DNA of 64,000 nucleotides. Source: Spirochaetota bacterium (GTDB lineage: Bacteria; Spirochaetota; UBA4802; UBA5550). Position numbers and translations under genes: made by a program. Where the stretch lies: assembly GCA_016933025.1 (NCBI GenBank), contig JAFGBT010000030.1, forward strand, positions 1-64,000. Reading direction: 5' to 3'. The notes below the pieces were generated by a model. It ran no database searches, was not told where the DNA came from, and was given only the letters and a program-made list of their open reading frames with translations. Below are positions 11,921 through 48,116 of the stretch, piece after piece; positions within the stretch are counted from its first letter, which is position 1; every line of letters begins with the position of its first letter.

Positions 11921-12745
11921 CTATTCAATATGTATCCTCTGTCTGATGCGCCACATTATCTCGCCGACGGCCTCTTCAATATCATCCACCTCCATGGCGA
12001 CGGCATCATGGGGACATGCGTTTGCGCACATCCCGCATCCCTTGCAGAGTGTTTCATCTCTTGCGATCCTGCTGTTCTGTATCGAGAGAGCGCCCATGAA
12101 GCATGTCTCGACGCAGGTACCGCATCGGAGACATTTACTCCCGTCAACGATAATCCTCAGGCCTTTGAGCCTGACAAGAGAATCCTGTGCCTCAGCCGGA
12201 ATATACCTGACTGACTTGAAGAGGACGCAGCAGCAGGGGCAGCAGAAGCAGATGGTGAGTGAGCGTCCGGTGTTTGGGGTGCCGTAAAAAAAATCGTCCA
12301 TTCGCACTCTGCCGAGCATGGGGATGAGTCCCCTGCCGATCATCATGCGGACGTGCCCGATTGCCTCCTCGACCGTGCGCGGCGTCGCAATGTGCCGATC
12401 GAGATATCGCGCGCCTTCCCCCAGGTGAAGGCATGCGTTTTCAACCGGATGGTTTTTGCACTTCTCCGTTTCCCGGCAGGTGCAACGGTTTATGGTCGCC
12501 CGATACGAGGAACGCCGTATCAGCTCTTCGAGAACCCTTTCCGGCAGGAAGGTGCTCCCAACGCCCCTGATGTCACGGTTAATCGGGATGTAGGTGATAT
12601 TGAAATTCTTGCCGGTGAACAGCGGCCGCATTACTTGATAGAACAGCCTTCCGATTATCGGCAGCCGGGTCATTTTGGCGCTTATATAGTTCAAAGGCCA
12701 TATGATCCTTAAAAAATCGAGCCACCATGTGGGTCGCTTGTGCAT
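11921..12745 (-). CDS. 4Fe-4S binding protein
   Basis: 274 aa. The C-terminal 65 residues hold two ferredoxin-type motifs: CLRCGTCVETC and CKGCGMCANACPHDAV. The middle has further cysteines (CTCRETEKCKNHPVENACLH and ICFCCPCCCVLF), suggesting another cluster or metal site. The N-terminus is basic and aromatic (WWLDFLRIIWPLNYISAK), perhaps membrane-associated. It is probably an electron carrier or reductase subunit; partner unknown. It lies 13 bases after the glutamine synthetase-like gene, likely in one transcript. Confidence 0.7.
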   Translation of the reverse strand: MHKRPTWWLDFLRIIWPLNYISAKMTRLPIIGRLFYQVMRPLFTGKNFNITYIPINRDIRGVGSTFLPERVLEELIRRSSYRATINRCTCRETEKCKNHPVENACLHLGEGARYLDRHIATPRTVEEAIGHVRMMIGRGLIPMLGRVRMDDFFYGTPNTGRSLTICFCCPCCCVLFKSVRYIPAEAQDSLVRLKGLRIIVDGSKCLRCGTCVETCFMGALSIQNSRIARDETLCKGCGMCANACPHDAVAMEVDDIEEAVGEIMWRIRQRIHIE

Positions 12746-12758
12746 GATACATACACCA

Positions 12759-14150
12759 TCAAATTTGCTCGAAATATCTTCGCCTCTCCCAGTCCGTTAC
12801 TGCACGATCGTAGGCGCTCTGCTCGGTTTTATAGAAGTGGAGGTAATGCTCGATGACATCTTCACCGAAAGCGGCGCGAGCAAATTCGCTCTTTTCAAGA
12901 CGGGCGATGGCGTCGCGCAGGGTGGCCGGAACGCGGGGCAACTCTGAAGATGAATACATGTCCCCCTTAAAACATTCAGGCGGCTCGATCCTGTTACAGA
13001 TTCCGTCGAGACCAGACGCGAGAGCCGCAGCGAAAGCGAGGTACGGGTTGATATCAGCTCCGGGTATGCGGGATTCTATGCGGAGGGACTCGTCTTCGCC
13101 GACCACGCGGAAACCGGCGGTTCTATTGTCGTAGCTCCAGGAGAGTGCCGTCGGCGCCCATGAGCCTGCCTGGTATCTTTTGTAGGAATTGACGGTGGGT
13201 GCGTAAAAGGGCATCAGGTCCGGCGCGTGCCGTATCCATCCCCCCATGAACCAGCGGAAGACTTCCGAGCAGGCCACCGGACCAAGTACATCGCGTCCGG
13301 CGAAGAGGTTGTTCTTCCCGGCAAAATCCCACAGGCTCAGATGAAGGTGACAACTCGATCCCGCAAGGTCAGTGTCGAACTTGGCCATGAAGGTCACTGA
13401 CAGGCCGAGCGAGCCTGCGACATCTTTAAAGCACTGCTTGTACACGGTCTGGTTGTCCGCCATCGTCATTACATCGTCATAGCGTACATTGAGTTCATGC
13501 TGTCCGGGGCCCCATTCTCCCTTGCTGAATTCTACCGGCACACCGCTTTCGGACAGGAATTTCCGTACCGAGGCATTAAGCGGTTCCTCCCTGGTCCCCT
13601 GAAGAATATGGTAATCTTCGATATACGAGCCGAAGGGCCTGATGTCCCGGTAATTCTTTGAGCGCGCCGTTTCGAAGGTATCGTTGAATATGTAATATTC
13701 AAGTTCAGACGCGCCCATGGCTCTAAAGCCCATTTGTTCAGCCAGTTTTATCTGCTTTTTCAGCATGTTCCTGGGCGCGATTGAGGTCTCCGCTGTGCCC
13801 CGTGTTTCATGGATATCGCAGATGACCAGCGCAGTCCGGTCGAGCCAGGCTGCCAGTCGCAGCGTGTCCATGTCCGGTATGCAGTGGAAGTCTCCATAGC
13901 CGGTTTCCCAGTTTGCGTAACGGTACCCGGAAACCGGGTTCATCTCCATGTCTGTGGTGAGAAGATAATTGCAGGCGTGCATGCCGGAGTCGGCCACTTG
14001 ATCAAGAAAGAAATCGGTTGTTATTCTTTTTCCGAAGAGTCGCCCGTAGATGTCCGGAAAGGCGGCGATAACAGTCTCGATTTCGCCTGAAGCCGCCTTT
14101 TTCTGCAGCTCCGCCATTGTCAGCATTCCTCTGTTCTGTTTTTTACTCAT
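12759..14150 (-). CDS. Glutamine synthetase family protein
   Basis: 463 aa, the length of GSI-type enzymes. The beta-grasp N-terminus includes FPDIYGRLFGKRI; the ATP/glutamate site is GASELEYYIF; then GPGQHELNVRY, the MAKFDTDLAGSSCHLHLSL region and SYKRYQAGSWAP. The catalytic site appears complete. The usual MPKP before the GSxxH is changed (MAKF), and no adenylylation-loop sequence is evident. This is closer to GlnT-like or gamma-glutamyl-amine ligases than to housekeeping GlnA, so the amine acceptor may not be ammonia. It lies between a trkA-like gene and an Fe-S protein on the same strand. Confidence 0.8.
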   Translation of the reverse strand: MSKKQNRGMLTMAELQKKAASGEIETVIAAFPDIYGRLFGKRITTDFFLDQVADSGMHACNYLLTTDMEMNPVSGYRYANWETGYGDFHCIPDMDTLRLAAWLDRTALVICDIHETRGTAETSIAPRNMLKKQIKLAEQMGFRAMGASELEYYIFNDTFETARSKNYRDIRPFGSYIEDYHILQGTREEPLNASVRKFLSESGVPVEFSKGEWGPGQHELNVRYDDVMTMADNQTVYKQCFKDVAGSLGLSVTFMAKFDTDLAGSSCHLHLSLWDFAGKNNLFAGRDVLGPVACSEVFRWFMGGWIRHAPDLMPFYAPTVNSYKRYQAGSWAPTALSWSYDNRTAGFRVVGEDESLRIESRIPGADINPYLAFAAALASGLDGICNRIEPPECFKGDMYSSSELPRVPATLRDAIARLEKSEFARAAFGEDVIEHYLHFYKTEQSAYDRAVTDWERRRYFEQI

Positions 14151-40980: not shown

Positions 40981-41042
40981 AATCAATATTCGTGCGAAAA
41001 ATGCTTTGACTTTTACCAATGTATTCGTGTAGGATTGACGAC

Positions 41043-41414
41043 ATGGAAATCGCTACACAAATCGTCATATTAATTGTCGCCCTCTCTTTTTCAGCCGGGA
41101 TTATCGCGCTGGTGGTCGTCCTGGTGCCAGCCATAAGGGAGCTCAAAAACCTGTTCATCGAGATAAGGAAGACGACATCAGAGGTGCGCGTTATTACTGA
41201 GGATACAAAAAAGATTATCTCTAATGTCGAGAGTAAAATCGAAAGTTTCGACGGCATATTCGAAAATTCCAAGCAGATTGCCGCGAATGTCGACAAGGCC
41301 TTCGCCATGGTGAACGACGCGTTCGGTAAACATGCCGAGTGGCTCGCCCTTATTCCCGCCGCTCTGGTCGGGTGGAAGGCTGTCAGCGCCCTTTTAAGGA
41401 GGAAGAATGAGTAA
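41043..41414 (+). CDS. DUF948/YtxG-like membrane protein
   Basis: 123 aa from the ATG at 41043 (AGGA upstream); an ATG at 41019 would add 8 residues. One N-terminal transmembrane helix (VILIVALSFSAGIIALVVVL), then a long coiled-coil-like stretch (LKNLFIEIRKTTSEVRVITE), then a short hydrophobic segment near the C-terminus. This and the following YtxH gene are the same pair as ytxG-ytxH of Bacillus, which belong to general stress genes. A TTGACT/TAGGAT pair (41006/41030) could be a promoter but would put the start almost at the 5' end. Confidence 0.7.
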   Translation: MEIATQIVILIVALSFSAGIIALVVVLVPAIRELKNLFIEIRKTTSEVRVITEDTKKIISNVESKIESFDGIFENSKQIAANVDKAFAMVNDAFGKHAEWLALIPAALVGWKAVSALLRRKNE

Positions 41415-41682
41415 TAATAACGACGGTTTCAAAACATTTGTCAGTTTTGTCCTGGGTGCGGCTGTTGGCGCCGTGTGTGGTCTGCTCTTGGCTCCCAAAC
41501 CAGGTAAGCAGCTGCGCGATGACCTGAAAGAATTCACGGACAAAATTGCGGACGACGCCAGAGCGGAGTACGAAAAAGCAAGCGCGAAGGTCAGGGAAAT
41601 GGGAGATAAGGCAAAAAATATTGCCGAAGAGACGAAAGAAAAAATACGCAGGAGCGGCAAAGACACTGAACCTGCCGGTTGA
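41407..41682 (+). CDS. YtxH-domain protein
   Basis: 91 aa. N-terminal hydrophobic helix with the YtxH signature (FVLGAAVGAVCGLLLAPKPG then KQLRDDL), followed by a charged amphipathic helix (KASAKVREMGDKAKNIAEET) resembling stress and LEA-like repeats. GGAGGAAG precedes the ATG, which overlaps the YtxG-like gene by 8 bases. Probably a membrane-associated stress protein. Confidence 0.85.
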   Translation: MSNNNDGFKTFVSFVLGAAVGAVCGLLLAPKPGKQLRDDLKEFTDKIADDARAEYEKASAKVREMGDKAKNIAEETKEKIRRSGKDTEPAG

Positions 41683-41690
41683 ACAGCCGC

Positions 41691-43010
41691 TCAGATGATA
41701 TAGTAATCCTTCAACTCCGTAAAGAGAGTCGCGATAAATTCCTTCACCACAACTATGGTCGGTATTGCCAGAATCAGCCCCGCGAATCCGAACAGCATGG
41801 AGCCGCCGATTATCCCGAGGAACACCGCGAGGGGGTGAATCTGCACCGCGCCTCCAACCACAAACGGCTGGAAAATGACGTTGTCCATCGCCATCACGAT
41901 TATCACGCAGACGAGGACGGCAAGTATAAGGTTGTCGGCCGTAATGAAGGGAAGCACTGAATTGACGTTCTCGGCGATGAGGGCGTACGAGGCGCCGCAC
42001 GCCAGAGCAATACCCGCACCCATGAGCGGTATCGCGTTTGCTATGCCGGCAAAAAGACCGATCATGACGGCCATTTTGATCTCGAATCCGAAGATTGAGA
42101 GTAAAATAGCGTAGGACAGGCCGACAAGTGAGCATTCCATGAGGATCCCGCGCAGATAATTGCCTATCGCTTTGTTTACCTTGTCGAAAACCGCGAGTGA
42201 GACCTCGAAATAGCGGTTCGGGACAAGGGCAACAAAAAATCTTTTGATTTCGCCGTCATCGATCAGCAGGAACAGGAATACCAGCGGCATAATGATCCAG
42301 AGCTTGAAGGCCGCCATGATGGCGGCAAGAGGGGACGTTTCGTTATCTTCACCGGCGGGAGTGGTTTTATTCTCCCCGTCGTTTTTCGCGGATTCCGTCG
42401 GTTGTTCACGGTCAACCACCGAATGGGTGTTCTTCAAAAAATACTCGTAGTATTTGTCCTTTATCGGGGCAAGGTGGTTATAGCCTATGCGGTACTTCAT
42501 GAACAACATGCGTTCTTCACGGTTCAGGCTGAGGGCGGCATTTATGCTTCCCATGAAGTGATCCAGGTCGTCACCGAGATACTTGTACACGATGTTTCCC
42601 GTGTCCCCCTGCTTCGATATCCCCATGAAGGCATGATAACGCTCGTTGAGCTTGTACTGGAAGCGAGTTCTGAGGACCAGCTGTTCCTTCTCGTTCGGGA
42701 GAATCGCGCCGACCAGGTTTGCTACGACCATTACGACTATAAAAAAAGTGCCGAACAGGAGGAGTATTCCGGCTGCGCGCGGAATGCCGATCTTGGTAAA
42801 GAGCTTGAGGACCGGGAAGCAGAGGTATGCAACGAACATGCCGACGATGGCCGGAAGTATTATGGGCCGGAGCGACCATATGAAGAAAAGCAGCGTCAGT
42901 ACTGCGAGGATTGCGGTAATTATAAAGACGATACGACGCGTCTGTTTCCGTTTATCCGTCTGGTGGATGTCTGAATTGCCGCGACCGTGCGGACCCGTGC
43001 CGTGAGTCAT
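41691..43010 (-). CDS. AI-2E family transporter (PerM/YdiK-like)
   Basis: 439 aa from the ATG at 43010, preceded by AAGGGTGA; a GTG at 43019 is the alternative. It has the family layout: paired N-terminal helices (IVFIITAILAVLTLLFFIWS), a polar middle with an unusually long acidic insert (TESAKNDGENKTTPAGEDNE), and C-terminal helices with MGAGIALACGASYALI and GGSMLFGFAGLILAIPTIVV. Members export autoinducer-2 or act as Na+/H+ exchangers; function here is not assignable. Overlapping stop/start with the cNMP gene suggests one transcript. Confidence 0.85.
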   Translation of the reverse strand: MTHGTGPHGRGNSDIHQTDKRKQTRRIVFIITAILAVLTLLFFIWSLRPIILPAIVGMFVAYLCFPVLKLFTKIGIPRAAGILLLFGTFFIVVMVVANLVGAILPNEKEQLVLRTRFQYKLNERYHAFMGISKQGDTGNIVYKYLGDDLDHFMGSINAALSLNREERMLFMKYRIGYNHLAPIKDKYYEYFLKNTHSVVDREQPTESAKNDGENKTTPAGEDNETSPLAAIMAAFKLWIIMPLVFLFLLIDDGEIKRFFVALVPNRYFEVSLAVFDKVNKAIGNYLRGILMECSLVGLSYAILLSIFGFEIKMAVMIGLFAGIANAIPLMGAGIALACGASYALIAENVNSVLPFITADNLILAVLVCVIIVMAMDNVIFQPFVVGGAVQIHPLAVFLGIIGGSMLFGFAGLILAIPTIVVVKEFIATLFTELKDYYII

Positions 43011-43011
43011 C

Positions 43012-43539
43012 TCAATCACCCTTAGAATAAATCTGCTCGTTAACGGCCTTGAGGCGCTGTCCGATAATGATCGACAAATCCTTTAAAATCTTGCTTCCGA
43101 TAGCGGGGTGGGTTTCAACCAGCTCGTTAAGATCTTCCCTGAAGAAAGCGAGCGCTTCGGTTTTTTCCGTCGCCTTCGCCGATGCTGAGCGGGGAGTATC
43201 GTCCAGGAGCGCGAGTTCTCCGAGAAAATCCTCAGGTTTGATTGTCGCGAGTTCAATTTCCTGACTTGTATGGCCTGGAACGACCACTTTTACCAGACCG
43301 CTTTTAATGATGAACATTGCCGTGCCCGGCTGATCCATTTCAAAAAGGTATTCGCCGGCATGGTATTTCCTCTCGTATATAAGGCCGGCAACCTTTTTCA
43401 GCTCCCGGGCACTCAGGTGCTGGAATATAGGGCATAGCTTCAGAACCTCGATATTGGGAATTTTTTTCCCGGCCTTGAATCTTGAAAACACGTTGCCCCA
43501 GAAGGCATTGATCTGTTTTTTCTCTTTAATAGTTGCCAT
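43012..43539 (-). CDS. Single-domain cyclic-nucleotide-binding protein
   Basis: 175 aa. Crp-type cNMP domain at about residues 35-150 with phosphate-binding cassette FLGELALLDDTPRSASAKA (the E and R are kept). There is no C-terminal helix-turn-helix; only a helix remains (ILKDLSIIIGQRLKAVNEQI). So it is a stand-alone sensor and may regulate a partner protein, perhaps the adjacent transporter, whose gene overlaps. AGAGG precedes the ATG. Confidence 0.8.
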   Translation of the reverse strand: MATIKEKKQINAFWGNVFSRFKAGKKIPNIEVLKLCPIFQHLSARELKKVAGLIYERKYHAGEYLFEMDQPGTAMFIIKSGLVKVVVPGHTSQEIELATIKPEDFLGELALLDDTPRSASAKATEKTEALAFFREDLNELVETHPAIGSKILKDLSIIIGQRLKAVNEQIYSKGD

Positions 43540-43713: not shown

Positions 43714-43779
43714 TTAATAGATGCAGGAAAGCCAACCGCACGGTGATGCATCGTTAGATTGATAATTAATATTACAGTT

Positions 43780-44562
43780 ATGATTCAGCATCAAGACAGA
43801 CTAAATACATTATTGAACCGCGTTTCTCCCCTTGAAATCATCAGGATAATTTTTTCTAAATCGGCCGCCGAAGCCAAAGAATTTTCACGTGTCGTGTTGA
43901 ACCAGGTCTATTTCACCTTCAACCAGGCCCTGCTGCTGCTGGCCATCATGGCGCTGCTTATTGCGGCAAGCGTATCGGTTCAGGCCGGATACGGTCTTTC
44001 CGTCATTGGCGCGTCCAGCCGCATAGGCGAGCTCTGGGTCTGGATGGTTGTGCGCATTTTCGGCCCTCTGCTTTCAGCCATCCTTATTATCGCCCGTTCC
44101 TGCACAGCCGTGGCCACCGAGACCGCGGTCATGAAGTACAACAAGGAGATCGAAGCGTTAGAATTGATGGGAATACCGACGGTCGATTATGTTTTTACCC
44201 CCCGTATCGTTGCGGGAGCCATAAGCAATTTCTGCATGGCCACATCGTTCGTTGTTATAGCGTTCGTCGGGACATGGCTTTCCAAAAACTGGTTCTCCTC
44301 GATGTCGATGAGGCACCTGTATGAACAGATATGGCGAGCGATGACCCCGGAAGACGTCATCTTTTTTCTACTCAAAACATTAATTGTCGGGGCCGGTATT
44401 TTCTGGATTGCCTGTAAAAAAGGGCTCTCGCTGAACAGGGGATCCTACGAGGTCCCAATAATCGCGATGCACGCGGTTGTTGACGGTTTTATCTGGGCCA
44501 TAGTGACACATATTTTTTTCACGACCCTGTTTATTATGATTCACGGATTCCACCTGCTGTAA
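43780..44562 (+). CDS. mlaE: MlaE-family ABC permease (MCE/lipid transport)
   Basis: 260 aa from the ATG at 43780; a TTG 21 bases earlier is possible and neither has a clear ribosome binding site. It has about five or six hydrophobic helices and the MlaE/YrbE core: ILIIARSCTAVATETAVMKY, then EIEALELMGIPTVDYVFTPR. In Mla systems two MlaE subunits form the inner-membrane channel for phospholipids moving to or from the outer membrane. It is followed by MlaF- and MlaD-like genes. Confidence 0.88.
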   Translation: MIQHQDRLNTLLNRVSPLEIIRIIFSKSAAEAKEFSRVVLNQVYFTFNQALLLLAIMALLIAASVSVQAGYGLSVIGASSRIGELWVWMVVRIFGPLLSAILIIARSCTAVATETAVMKYNKEIEALELMGIPTVDYVFTPRIVAGAISNFCMATSFVVIAFVGTWLSKNWFSSMSMRHLYEQIWRAMTPEDVIFFLLKTLIVGAGIFWIACKKGLSLNRGSYEVPIIAMHAVVDGFIWAIVTHIFFTTLFIMIHGFHLL

Positions 44563-44565
44563 GGA

Positions 44566-45360
44566 GTGACCGTTACGGAAGCGATGCTCACATTCGATAA
44601 CGTTGTCGGTTTGGCTCACGAATGCCTATTCGACGAGCATTTTCCGGTCAGCTTTGACCTGAGACCGGGTGAGATTGGAATTATCAGGGGAGGGTTCAAG
44701 GCCTCTTCGCTCATCCGAATCGCCGCGATCAGAGGCATACTCATCCGAGGTTCGATTACACTCCTGGGGAACACTATTGAATCCGGCGACAATCCGGCCC
44801 GCTATCTCTCCCCGCATTTCACCAAGAAATTCAGGCCGTCCATAGGATTCTGCCACCAGAACGGCGGTCTTCTCGCCAACATGACCATCGTCCAGAATGT
44901 CATGCTCCCCGCGCATTACCATTCTGGCCATCGCTCGCCTGAACCTTTTTATGCATTGGCCCGCGAGCGCCTGCAAGAAGCGGACGTTCCGGAGGAGTAC
45001 TGGGGCCTCCGCCCCTCCGATGTGCCTCCTGAATACCAGAAACGCGCCCTGTTCGCCCGCTCGATCATACATGAACCAAAGATATTGATCCTCGACGAGC
45101 CGACGGCCGGCATTCCATGGGAACAGACCCATGAAATAGCTTCATGGTTGTTGGGCCAGAAGGGGATGGGCAGGGGAATCCTCATCGCCACCGACAACGA
45201 CCCCTTTGCGGCGCTCGTAGGAGACTGGCTGGTCGACCTCGACCGCTCTGCCTACAAATCATGCAATAATGAAATCAGGCTGTTTTTAGGAGACATTGTT
45301 GATAAAAGCAGCGCGCTTATAAAAAAACAGATGAAAGCAGGTAAAAAAAATGCACAATAA
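44566..45360 (+). CDS. MlaF-like ABC ATPase with degenerate nucleotide-binding motifs
   Basis: 264 aa from GTG at 44566 after AAGGA. The fold of an ABC ATPase is clear: Q-loop region IGFCHQNGGLLANMTIVQNV and intact Walker B ILILDEPTAGI (D177, E178). The Walker A site reads IIRGGFKASSLIRI (about residues 39-52) and lacks GxGK(S/T). The signature is SDVPPEYQKRALFARSI instead of LSGGxxxR. The H-loop is IATDN without His. The protein therefore probably does not hydrolyse ATP in the usual way, yet its place between mlaE- and mlaD-like genes is exactly that of MlaF. No second ATPase gene is adjacent. Confidence 0.85.
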   Translation: MTVTEAMLTFDNVVGLAHECLFDEHFPVSFDLRPGEIGIIRGGFKASSLIRIAAIRGILIRGSITLLGNTIESGDNPARYLSPHFTKKFRPSIGFCHQNGGLLANMTIVQNVMLPAHYHSGHRSPEPFYALARERLQEADVPEEYWGLRPSDVPPEYQKRALFARSIIHEPKILILDEPTAGIPWEQTHEIASWLLGQKGMGRGILIATDNDPFAALVGDWLVDLDRSAYKSCNNEIRLFLGDIVDKSSALIKKQMKAGKKNAQ

Positions 45361-45985
45361 AGCCTTGATCGGAATAATAATCATCACTCTGTTGTTCGCC
45401 GCCAACGTGGCGTACATCGGCTATAAAAACCTCTGGTTCGAGCCGAAGAACAGATACTGGACGCTCCTGAAAACAGCTGATGGCCTCAGGGAGGGCACTC
45501 TGGTGACATTTCACGGACTCAAGATGGGCGAGGTCACGGAGCTTGCCGTGACCGAAAGAAATTTTATCAAGGTGAATTTCTATGTGCGGAAATCAATGGC
45601 TAAAAAGATAACCATCGGGTCCCTTGTCAGGGTTTCCAGGTCCATGATGATCGGTGAGAAAAAACTGGAGATCATTCCGGGTCCGGTTGTAAACGCCCTG
45701 GTGCCGAACCACAGTTTTATCCGGGGGCAGGACGTCAGGGAAATATCCGACCTGCTGACAAGCGGCGAACAGCTCCAGCGGTTCGTGCCGCAGCTCGAGA
45801 GGATTCTCAATAATGTTGACATGATTATGGGCAGCGTGGCCGAAAATCCGGACATGATTCCAAAGGTTATAAAAATCCTGGACGAGGCAAATGTTCTGAT
45901 GAAAACGGTGGAGCGCTCCTGGCTCTTCAAGGGCAGCTATAAAAACTTCATCAACGAGCAGAAGAACAAAGCGGAAGCGAAGTGA
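45350..45985 (+). CDS. MCE-domain protein (MlaD-like)
   Basis: 211 aa. N-terminal transmembrane anchor (LIGIIIITLLFAANVAYIGY), then one MCE domain: LKTADGLREGTLVTFHGLKM, GEVTELAVTERNFIKVNFYV, and LVRVSRSMMIGEKKLEIIPG. The last 80 residues form a helix as in MlaD, where hexamers make a lipid tunnel in the periplasm. It overlaps the ATPase gene by 11 bases. Confidence 0.88.
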   Translation: MHNKALIGIIIITLLFAANVAYIGYKNLWFEPKNRYWTLLKTADGLREGTLVTFHGLKMGEVTELAVTERNFIKVNFYVRKSMAKKITIGSLVRVSRSMMIGEKKLEIIPGPVVNALVPNHSFIRGQDVREISDLLTSGEQLQRFVPQLERILNNVDMIMGSVAENPDMIPKVIKILDEANVLMKTVERSWLFKGSYKNFINEQKNKAEAK

Positions 45986-46892: not shown

Positions 46893-48116
46893 ATGTTCAA
46901 ACGGAAACCAATCATCATTGCCCTTCTGGGGACAGGCCTTATTGCCGTTATTAGCTGTTCGAGCCAGGAACGCTTATCTCGCTACCAGTCTGCAATCGAC
47001 GCGGTCAATAATAACGACCTCGTCGCCGTCAGCAGAGCAGTTGAAGCCGGAGATGCCGCGAAGCGAAGATACCTCGATGGCTGGACGCTCCTTCATATCG
47101 CCGCGAGATGGGACCTCGAAAAAGTTTCCAGGCTCTGTTTCGGCTTCCCGATGAACTCCTCAACCGGCATTTTCCCCGAACAGGGCGATCATACCGCAAC
47201 CGCTCATGCCGCGGCCGATATCATTTACTCCATTATCGCAAAGGGTGGAGATGTAACGGCTCTCAACGACAAGGGCGACACCCCGCTTCATGTCGCCCTT
47301 GCCTCACTGAAGAAGGACTCTACCGATATCCCCTCAATAGCCCCTCTGGCCGGAAGGATTACCTCCGGCTTCGGATGGCGCGGCTCGCCGTTCGACAACA
47401 ACAGCGATTATCACCGCGCGCTCGACATAGCGGCAAAAAACGGAACACCGGTTCGCTCGACCGCTGACGGTATAGTTTCGGAAACCGGGGTGAGCAAAGA
47501 ACTCGGCAATTATATTGTGGTACGCCATAAAGGCGGATACTGTTCGGTGTACGGCCATTGCCATCTTTTCGCAGTAAAAAAAATGTCATACGTCAGGCGC
47601 GGCGATGTTGTCGGGTACGTGGGAAGAACGGGCGCAACCACCGGCGATCACTGTCATTATGAAATACGTCTTAACGGTTCTCCGGTAGATCCCTCCGGTT
47701 ACATCAACCTAAAGGCCGTGCACCAGGCGCAGCATGCCGTCGTTGCGGCCGCAGTCGGCCTCCTTCTTTCAAAGCAGGCTCCCGTCGATGCGCGCAATGA
47801 AACGGGCCGCACCCCGCTCCTGGAATCTGCCGGGAAAAGCCGCGCGATTTCGATTCTTCTCATCGAGCACGGAGCAGATGTAAACATATGCGATGAAAAC
47901 GGCGTGACCCCGCTGCATGTCGCGGCAGCCGCCGATGCAGAACTTGTCAGGATCCTCATTGACAGGGGGGCGCGGATCGACGCACGCACCAGGAACCGTT
48001 ATACGTCGATCGCCGGAAAACTCTGCCGTCCCTCCACAACCCCGCTCGACGTTGCGATCAGTGCCGGCAACAACGCCGCAGCCGACATCCTTAAAGGCCG
48101 CGCGGCAGTAGAATAA
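46893..48116 (+). CDS. Lipoprotein with an M23 (LytM) peptidase domain between ankyrin repeats
   Basis: 407 aa. Lipoprotein signal ends VISC (C22). Residues about 33-140 are ankyrin-like (LDGWTLLHIAARWDLEKVSR; NDKGDTPLHVALASL). Residues about 151-271 are a complete M23 domain with GRITSGFGWRG, H174 and D178 (YHRALDIAAKNGTPV), YGHCH at 220-224, and H253/H255 in GDHCHYEIRL. Residues about 282-405 are ankyrin repeats again (NETGRTPLLESAGKSRAISI; NGVTPLHVAAAADAELVRIL). The zinc ligands are kept, so it may cleave peptidoglycan cross-links, held on a membrane by its lipid. Ankyrins on both sides of one peptidase domain are an arrangement I do not recall. Confidence 0.85.
   Translation: MFKRKPIIIALLGTGLIAVISCSSQERLSRYQSAIDAVNNNDLVAVSRAVEAGDAAKRRYLDGWTLLHIAARWDLEKVSRLCFGFPMNSSTGIFPEQGDHTATAHAAADIIYSIIAKGGDVTALNDKGDTPLHVALASLKKDSTDIPSIAPLAGRITSGFGWRGSPFDNNSDYHRALDIAAKNGTPVRSTADGIVSETGVSKELGNYIVVRHKGGYCSVYGHCHLFAVKKMSYVRRGDVVGYVGRTGATTGDHCHYEIRLNGSPVDPSGYINLKAVHQAQHAVVAAAVGLLLSKQAPVDARNETGRTPLLESAGKSRAISILLIEHGADVNICDENGVTPLHVAAAADAELVRILIDRGARIDARTRNRYTSIAGKLCRPSTTPLDVAISAGNNAAADILKGRAAVE

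Follow-up and report, generated by a model that had tools for sequence, protein, structure and literature searches.

A spirochaete MlaE-MCE gene set with an MlaF-position protein lacking key ATPase motifs, and similarly degenerate NBDs across its order

The window (the whole 64,000-nucleotide stretch of DNA that was analysed) belongs to a draft spirochaete genome, here called G000, of 4.06 Mb in 55 contigs and 92% complete. Assignment to Spirochaetota is indicated by the flagellar sheath protein FlaA (PF04620), which 58 of the 59 genomes searched carry, as against 0 of 14 control genomes. It carries three contiguous genes on the forward strand (43759-45985) that encode, in order, an MlaE permease, an ABC-type NBD (P0001), and a short MCE protein. 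The P0001 gene starts 3 nt past the MlaE stop codon, and its reading frame overlaps that of the MCE gene by 11 nt. No MlaB gene was seen adjoining this set. The genes and the motifs of P0001, whose positions were set by alignment with LolD/MlaF-type NBDs, are as follows.

43759-44562, + strand: MlaE-type permease, 267 aa, start codon uncertain (Pfam PF02405, 1.3e-45, 156 bits)
44566-45360, + strand: P0001, MlaF-position pseudo-ATPase, 264 aa, GTG start (PF00005)
44686-44709, + strand: Walker A position, residues 41-48, RGGFKASS versus GxxGxGK[S/T], glycines and Lys replaced
44857-44859, + strand: Q-loop Gln (Q98), kept
45022-45045, + strand: signature position, residues 153-160, VPPEYQKR versus LSGGxxxR
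45082-45102, + strand: Walker B, residues 173-179, ILILDEP, kept, with the catalytic Glu present
45193-45195, + strand: H-loop position, Asp (D210) in place of His
45350-45985, + strand: MCE (MlaD-type) protein, 211 aa, ATG at 45350 (PF02470, 3.2e-11; MlaD, 43.7 bits)

P0001 is recognised as an NBD by its profile match (PF00005, ABC_tran, 36.5 bits against a cut-off of 25). Its best NCBIfam match is FtsE (50.7 bits), and the NCBIfam MlaF equivalog (PRK11831, cut-off 441 bits) is absent among its 25 best NCBIfam matches. The upstream permease scores 100 bits with NCBIfam TIGR00056, which is under the cut-off of that model. Use of an alternative ATG start at 44584 would leave all motifs of P0001 unaffected. 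A preliminary description of this DNA, made from its sequence, had placed P0001 in the middle of an mlaE/mlaF/mlaD-like set with an intact frame that overlaps the MCE gene, and had reported that Walker B and the Q-loop are kept while Walker A, the signature, and the H-loop His are lost. The Pfam matches, the overlap, and the motif readings listed above bear out each of these points. The fold model it proposed goes only part of the way: Foldseek returns ABC NBDs, with the best 50 matches all being ABC proteins (including MlaF, 6xgz and 6xbd), but the AF2 model used for this search was built from few ABC homologues and is of low confidence (pLDDT 56).

The codon usage of the P0001 frame is the best of all six frames (0.146 versus 0.014 or less for the others). 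Neither of the other two frames across the P-loop encodes GKS/T, and thus a single indel would not restore this motif. As a control, eight other ABC ATPases of G000 carry an intact GxxxxGK[S/T], which indicates that the missing P-loop is not a fault of the analysis; the one clear exception is a second dead copy on contig C6. Judged by its motifs, P0001 is almost certainly a pseudo-ATPase, and it is predicted neither to bind nor to hydrolyse ATP.

No match to P0001 was found in 58 relatives at 1e-15, and no close homologue was found in 393 genomes of the phylum, where the only matches were canonical proteins or proteins of the P5 group (described below) at about 30% identity. A scan of genome contigs likewise yielded no close match, and a set of the window type is present in 1 of the 46 genomes of the order. 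The trio is flanked by a block of DUF948, YtxH-like, AI-2E transporter, and cNMP-binding genes (41019-43539) that is conserved in all five congeners at 46-80% identity. None of these five congeners has MlaE, NBD, or MCE genes at this block, and the window set is either a gain in G000 or a loss elsewhere. Also present in the window (46893-48116, + strand) is a gene whose product is predicted to be a lipoprotein. It has an M23 peptidase domain, with ankyrin repeats after this domain and probably also before it.

MlaE and MCE are each encoded by three genes in G000. The additional mla genes of this genome are as follows.

Contig C6 (L052), minus strand: complete trio of the type called set A, with MCE at 288007-288768, NBD at 288743-289498, and MlaE at 289502-290575
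Contig C8, L053:4671-5546: orphan MlaE, a single gene beside a gene that we take from its sequence to be dnaB
Contig C29, L054:4513-5412: orphan MCE, a single gene beside one that is presumably radA, again from its sequence
Contig C19, about 12037-12792 (L010:1438-2193): canonical MlaF-like ATPase, standing alone beside rsgA

The C6 NBD is also dead, and it is more degenerate than P0001 (GIERSGLKT, LTNSQ, LIIEHA, VTYEP). The motifs of the C19 protein are intact (GKNGSGKS, LSGGMQKR, FFDDP, TTHD) and its best NCBIfam match is MlaF, so that a search of the genome for a second MlaF does recover one canonical candidate. The scattered C8 MlaE, C19 MlaF, and C29 MCE genes probably constitute the one ordinary system of G000. 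Relatives carry a canonical trio, called set B (GMSGTGKT, ISGGMKKR, LYDEP, VTHD), which was not found in the 92% complete assembly of G000.

Set A is distributed far more widely than the window set. A profile of the C6-type NBD, applied with a cut-off of 1e-45, detects set A NBDs in 42 of the 46 genomes of the order (260-393 bits), and beyond these it matches only two other families, f22 and f38 (164-244 bits). The Walker A Lys is absent from all 29 aligned set A NBDs and from four members read later (33/33). Within the alignment, some rows of which are near-duplicates from one genus, signature Gly4 has become Ser (27/29), the Walker B Asp has become Glu and the catalytic Glu has become His (27/29 each), the H-loop His has become Tyr (28/29), and the Q-loop Gln is lost throughout (29/29). 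Two of the four members read later still have the H-loop His. These replacement residues are conserved across families, which is unlike random decay. In at least 28 of 29 sequences, the set A MlaE proteins retain the canonical residues at 20 of 26 conserved columns, and dN/dS values are 0.14-0.33 for the NBD, 0.18-0.31 for MlaE, and 0.14-0.24 for MCE. A C-terminal GPM tail is invariant in 20 of 20 aligned set A NBDs; in E. coli, the C-terminal extension of MlaF stabilises the NBD dimer (PMC7367683). An internal deletion that keeps the frame has removed the H-loop region from one 216-aa member of set A (NBD at L148:2872-3522 in G013, also L035).

Both set A and the window locus are MlaE-NBD-MCE trios with a dead NBD, the NBDs being about 25-28% identical and the MlaE proteins 33% identical. 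Set A differs in having also lost Walker B and the Q-loop Gln and in keeping the MlaF-like GPM tail, whereas the C-terminal tail of P0001 lacks the GP[IM] ending of sets A and B and is not readily recognisable as an MlaF tail.

The sister lineage f22/f38 (L137-L145, L152) forms a clade with set A (99/95) in a tree computed without the motif columns. Its NBDs have already lost the signature, the H-loop His, and most of Walker B, but GPExSGK is kept in 9 of 10. Because this clade combines a retained Lys with the loss of the other motifs, the Lys appears to have been the last to go in the set A lineage. At the f22/f38 loci the NBD gene is followed by an MCE gene, and no MlaE was seen adjoining the NBD there. 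Among other spirochaete MlaF proteins with an intact Walker A, signatures are mostly LS[LMYI]GE-like, and 7 of 15 have lost the H-loop His to Q, N, D, E, or Y (L024, L064, L065, L071, L092, L093, and L132).

P0001-like NBDs outside the order, collectively P5, occur in five genomes (G046, G105, G070, G093, and G080). A P0001+P0002 profile gives 408 bits for G105, 346 for G046, 160 for G070, 149 for G093, and at most 86 for the rest, a gap that partly reflects closeness to G105 because the profile includes the G105 sequence. The G080 protein is the first below this gap, and its NBD is dead too. All P5 NBDs have lost the P-loop, signature, and His, with P-loop readings such as GQNDKNRT, GHDDKERS, and GHSDKERT; the Lys is replaced by Arg in four of five, Walker B is kept in four of five, and the H-loop His is Glu in all five. 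The Lys-to-Arg change equals K47R of E. coli MlaF, which abolishes ATPase activity (PMC5016091) and thus speaks for dead NBDs in P5. An MlaE gene adjoins each of them, as with P0001, and MCE is next in G070, G093, and G080. G046 and G105 have no adjacent MCE gene and also possess a separate canonical trio, so that the dead set was added rather than substituted. For this one measurable pair, dN/dS is 0.083 versus 0.085 for canonical MlaF of the same genomes, and the pair is thus under purifying selection like the live MlaF. P5 differs from P0001 in sequence (27-33% identity) and in its Lys-to-Arg change, where P0001 has Ser.

P0001 and P5 group with support of 93/83 when all columns are used. 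Without the motif columns the grouping is gone, or drops to 61/78 with more taxa. The MlaE-only tree instead places the window copy with set A (89/86), and a grouping of set A with the window is not rejected by concatenated data (p 0.44). Depending on gene, columns, and taxa, P0001 would belong with P5, with set A, or with neither, and we rejected a firm assignment. A concatenated tree separates sets A, P5, and the window from B and C (95/92), which is compatible with one origin of all dead NBDs. P0001 and its MlaE lie on very long branches, and these are compatible with relaxed constraint. The stronger result lies in the spread of set A across the order and in the stepwise loss behind it, rather than in the window gene.

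We lean toward the reading that P0001 is a pseudo-ATPase under selection, serving as the scaffold of an MlaE-MCE lipid conduit that works with no hydrolysis of ATP. That lipid transport here might not be powered by P0001 was one of two options offered in the preliminary description, and the three broken motifs, together with analogous losses in conserved relatives, favour it. By analogy, the complex would be MlaE2-P0001(2)-MCE6 and would serve as a second-line MCE lipid transporter. P0001 would still dimerise, dock on the coupling helix of MlaE, and keep the permease assembled. In the nucleotide-free structure of E. coli MlaE, the permease is outward-open and its lipid-containing channel runs on into the MlaD pore (PMC7790496); the window MlaE would probably be held in a similar outward-open, MCE-connected state. 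A dead NBD dimer could in this way make MlaE a permanent lipid port that serves the MCE ring. Phospholipid would then cross the pore formed by MlaE and MCE along its own gradient, or under some drive other than hydrolysis of ATP by P0001. Against this scaffold reading stands the fact that ATPase mutants of the studied Mla and Mce systems are inactive or unstable. E. coli MlaF K47R forms a complex that has no ATPase activity and does not complement (PMC5016091), K47A and E170Q also fail (PMC7367683), and in Mtb, Mce1/4 become unstable when Walker B of the shared ATPase MceG is mutated (PMC9947336). An ATP-free version must presumably have compensated for the instability seen with MceG.

The window set might instead be a redundant extra copy in decay, whose motifs were lost first while the frame is still open. 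This explanation is unlikely, but it draws on the singleton status of the set, on the congeners that keep the cNMP/AI-2E flank with no such set, and on the long MlaE and P0001 branches. On the other side, the three genes are in frame and overlapping with normal coding bias, and a neutral 264-codon frame would be open at saturation with odds of about (61/64)^264 = 3e-6 (by arithmetic). In addition, Walker B is untouched even though the P-loop is almost wholly replaced, and losses of this kind have been stably retained among conserved relatives. The earlier argument that an intact frame speaks against decay thus stands for the frame and its coding bias, but it does not dispose of decay for a singleton. 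Likewise, the expectation that the substitutions recur holds in that set A and P5 show similar losses, but nothing close to the window copy itself turned up in the genomes searched; accordingly, none with normal motifs was found, and there are many relatives with similar losses. That the motif loss is an assembly or sequencing error is barely conceivable. Although G000 is a draft of 55 contigs with a completeness of about 92%, none of the three frames restores GKS, three separate motifs are changed by many substitutions within one intact frame, and a similar pattern is seen in independent genomes.

Two further explanations retain a role for nucleotide. In an NBD dimer, each site combines Walker A, Walker B, and the H-loop from one subunit with the signature from its partner. 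Since P0001 has neither Walker A nor a signature, no partner NBD completes a site. This weighs against the second option of the preliminary description, a separate ATPase that pairs with P0001, by which P0001 would be the non-catalytic half of a mixed dimer with the C19 MlaF, or C19 would be shared between systems like MceG. The intact motifs and MlaF match of C19 suit such a partner, and one MceG does serve two MCE transporters (PMC9947336). However, neither site of the mixed dimer would be complete, whereas known one-sided transporters keep one consensus site (PMC7756269), and C19 fits better with the MlaE (C8) and MCE (C29) that would otherwise stand unpaired. We consider this pairing improbable and the original proposal unsupported. 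It is highly improbable that P0001 has an altered pocket for nucleotide or some other ligand and regulates the permease, or acts as its sensor, through binding there. The Walker B and Q-loop of P0001, the Walker B of most P5 proteins (4/5), and the change of the H-loop His to an acid in all six (P0001 and P5) would agree with a binding role. Nevertheless, phosphate binding is unlikely without the P-loop Lys and glycines, and Walker B is lost in set A too, so that ligand binding would not be the common function.

With regard to the phylum, we give an even chance to a broader proposal: that Spirochaetota have a whole class of ABC-architecture MCE lipid transporters, made up of MlaE, a pseudo-NBD, and MCE, whose own NBD hydrolyses no ATP. 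The class would have arisen by stepwise motif loss, with signature, Walker B, and His going before the Lys in the set A lineage, and selection would now maintain it across the order as a conduit that accompanies ordinary MlaEFD sets. ABC transporters are by definition driven by ATP, and there is open dispute over both the direction and the energetics of lipid traffic through Mla/MCE systems. If true, an order-conserved MlaE-MCE machine with an ATP-incapable NBD would allow what the NBD does structurally to be told apart from its work as motor, and it would provide a native system in which to ask whether an MCE conduit moves lipid passively. We know of no description of order-wide dead-NBD MlaE-MCE sets, and no description of a dead MlaF or of a spirochaete Mla system was found in the open-access literature (subscription papers were outside the search).

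The known systems nearest to the window set are MlaFEDB of E. coli and A. baumannii and MlaEFD of Veillonella parvula, which share with it the MlaE-MlaF-MlaD trio, the MlaF/MlaD overlap, and the NBD fold. The window set differs in that its NBD lacks Walker A, the signature, and the H-loop, there is no adjacent MlaB, and its single MCE protein is short; non-proteobacterial MlaD proteins are mostly long (PMC10665443). The degenerate-site ABC exporters TAP, CFTR, and TM287/288 resemble P0001 in having lost catalytic residues in an NBD under selection. These heterodimers have one consensus site left, whereas no complete site is possible with P0001. The membrane proteins of LetAB and PqiABC are LetA and PqiA, in contrast to the MlaE and NBD-like protein at the window. 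LetAB and PqiABC transport lipid by way of MCE proteins and have no ABC ATPase (PMC10897342); MCE transport with no working ABC ATPase is proposed here for the window set too.
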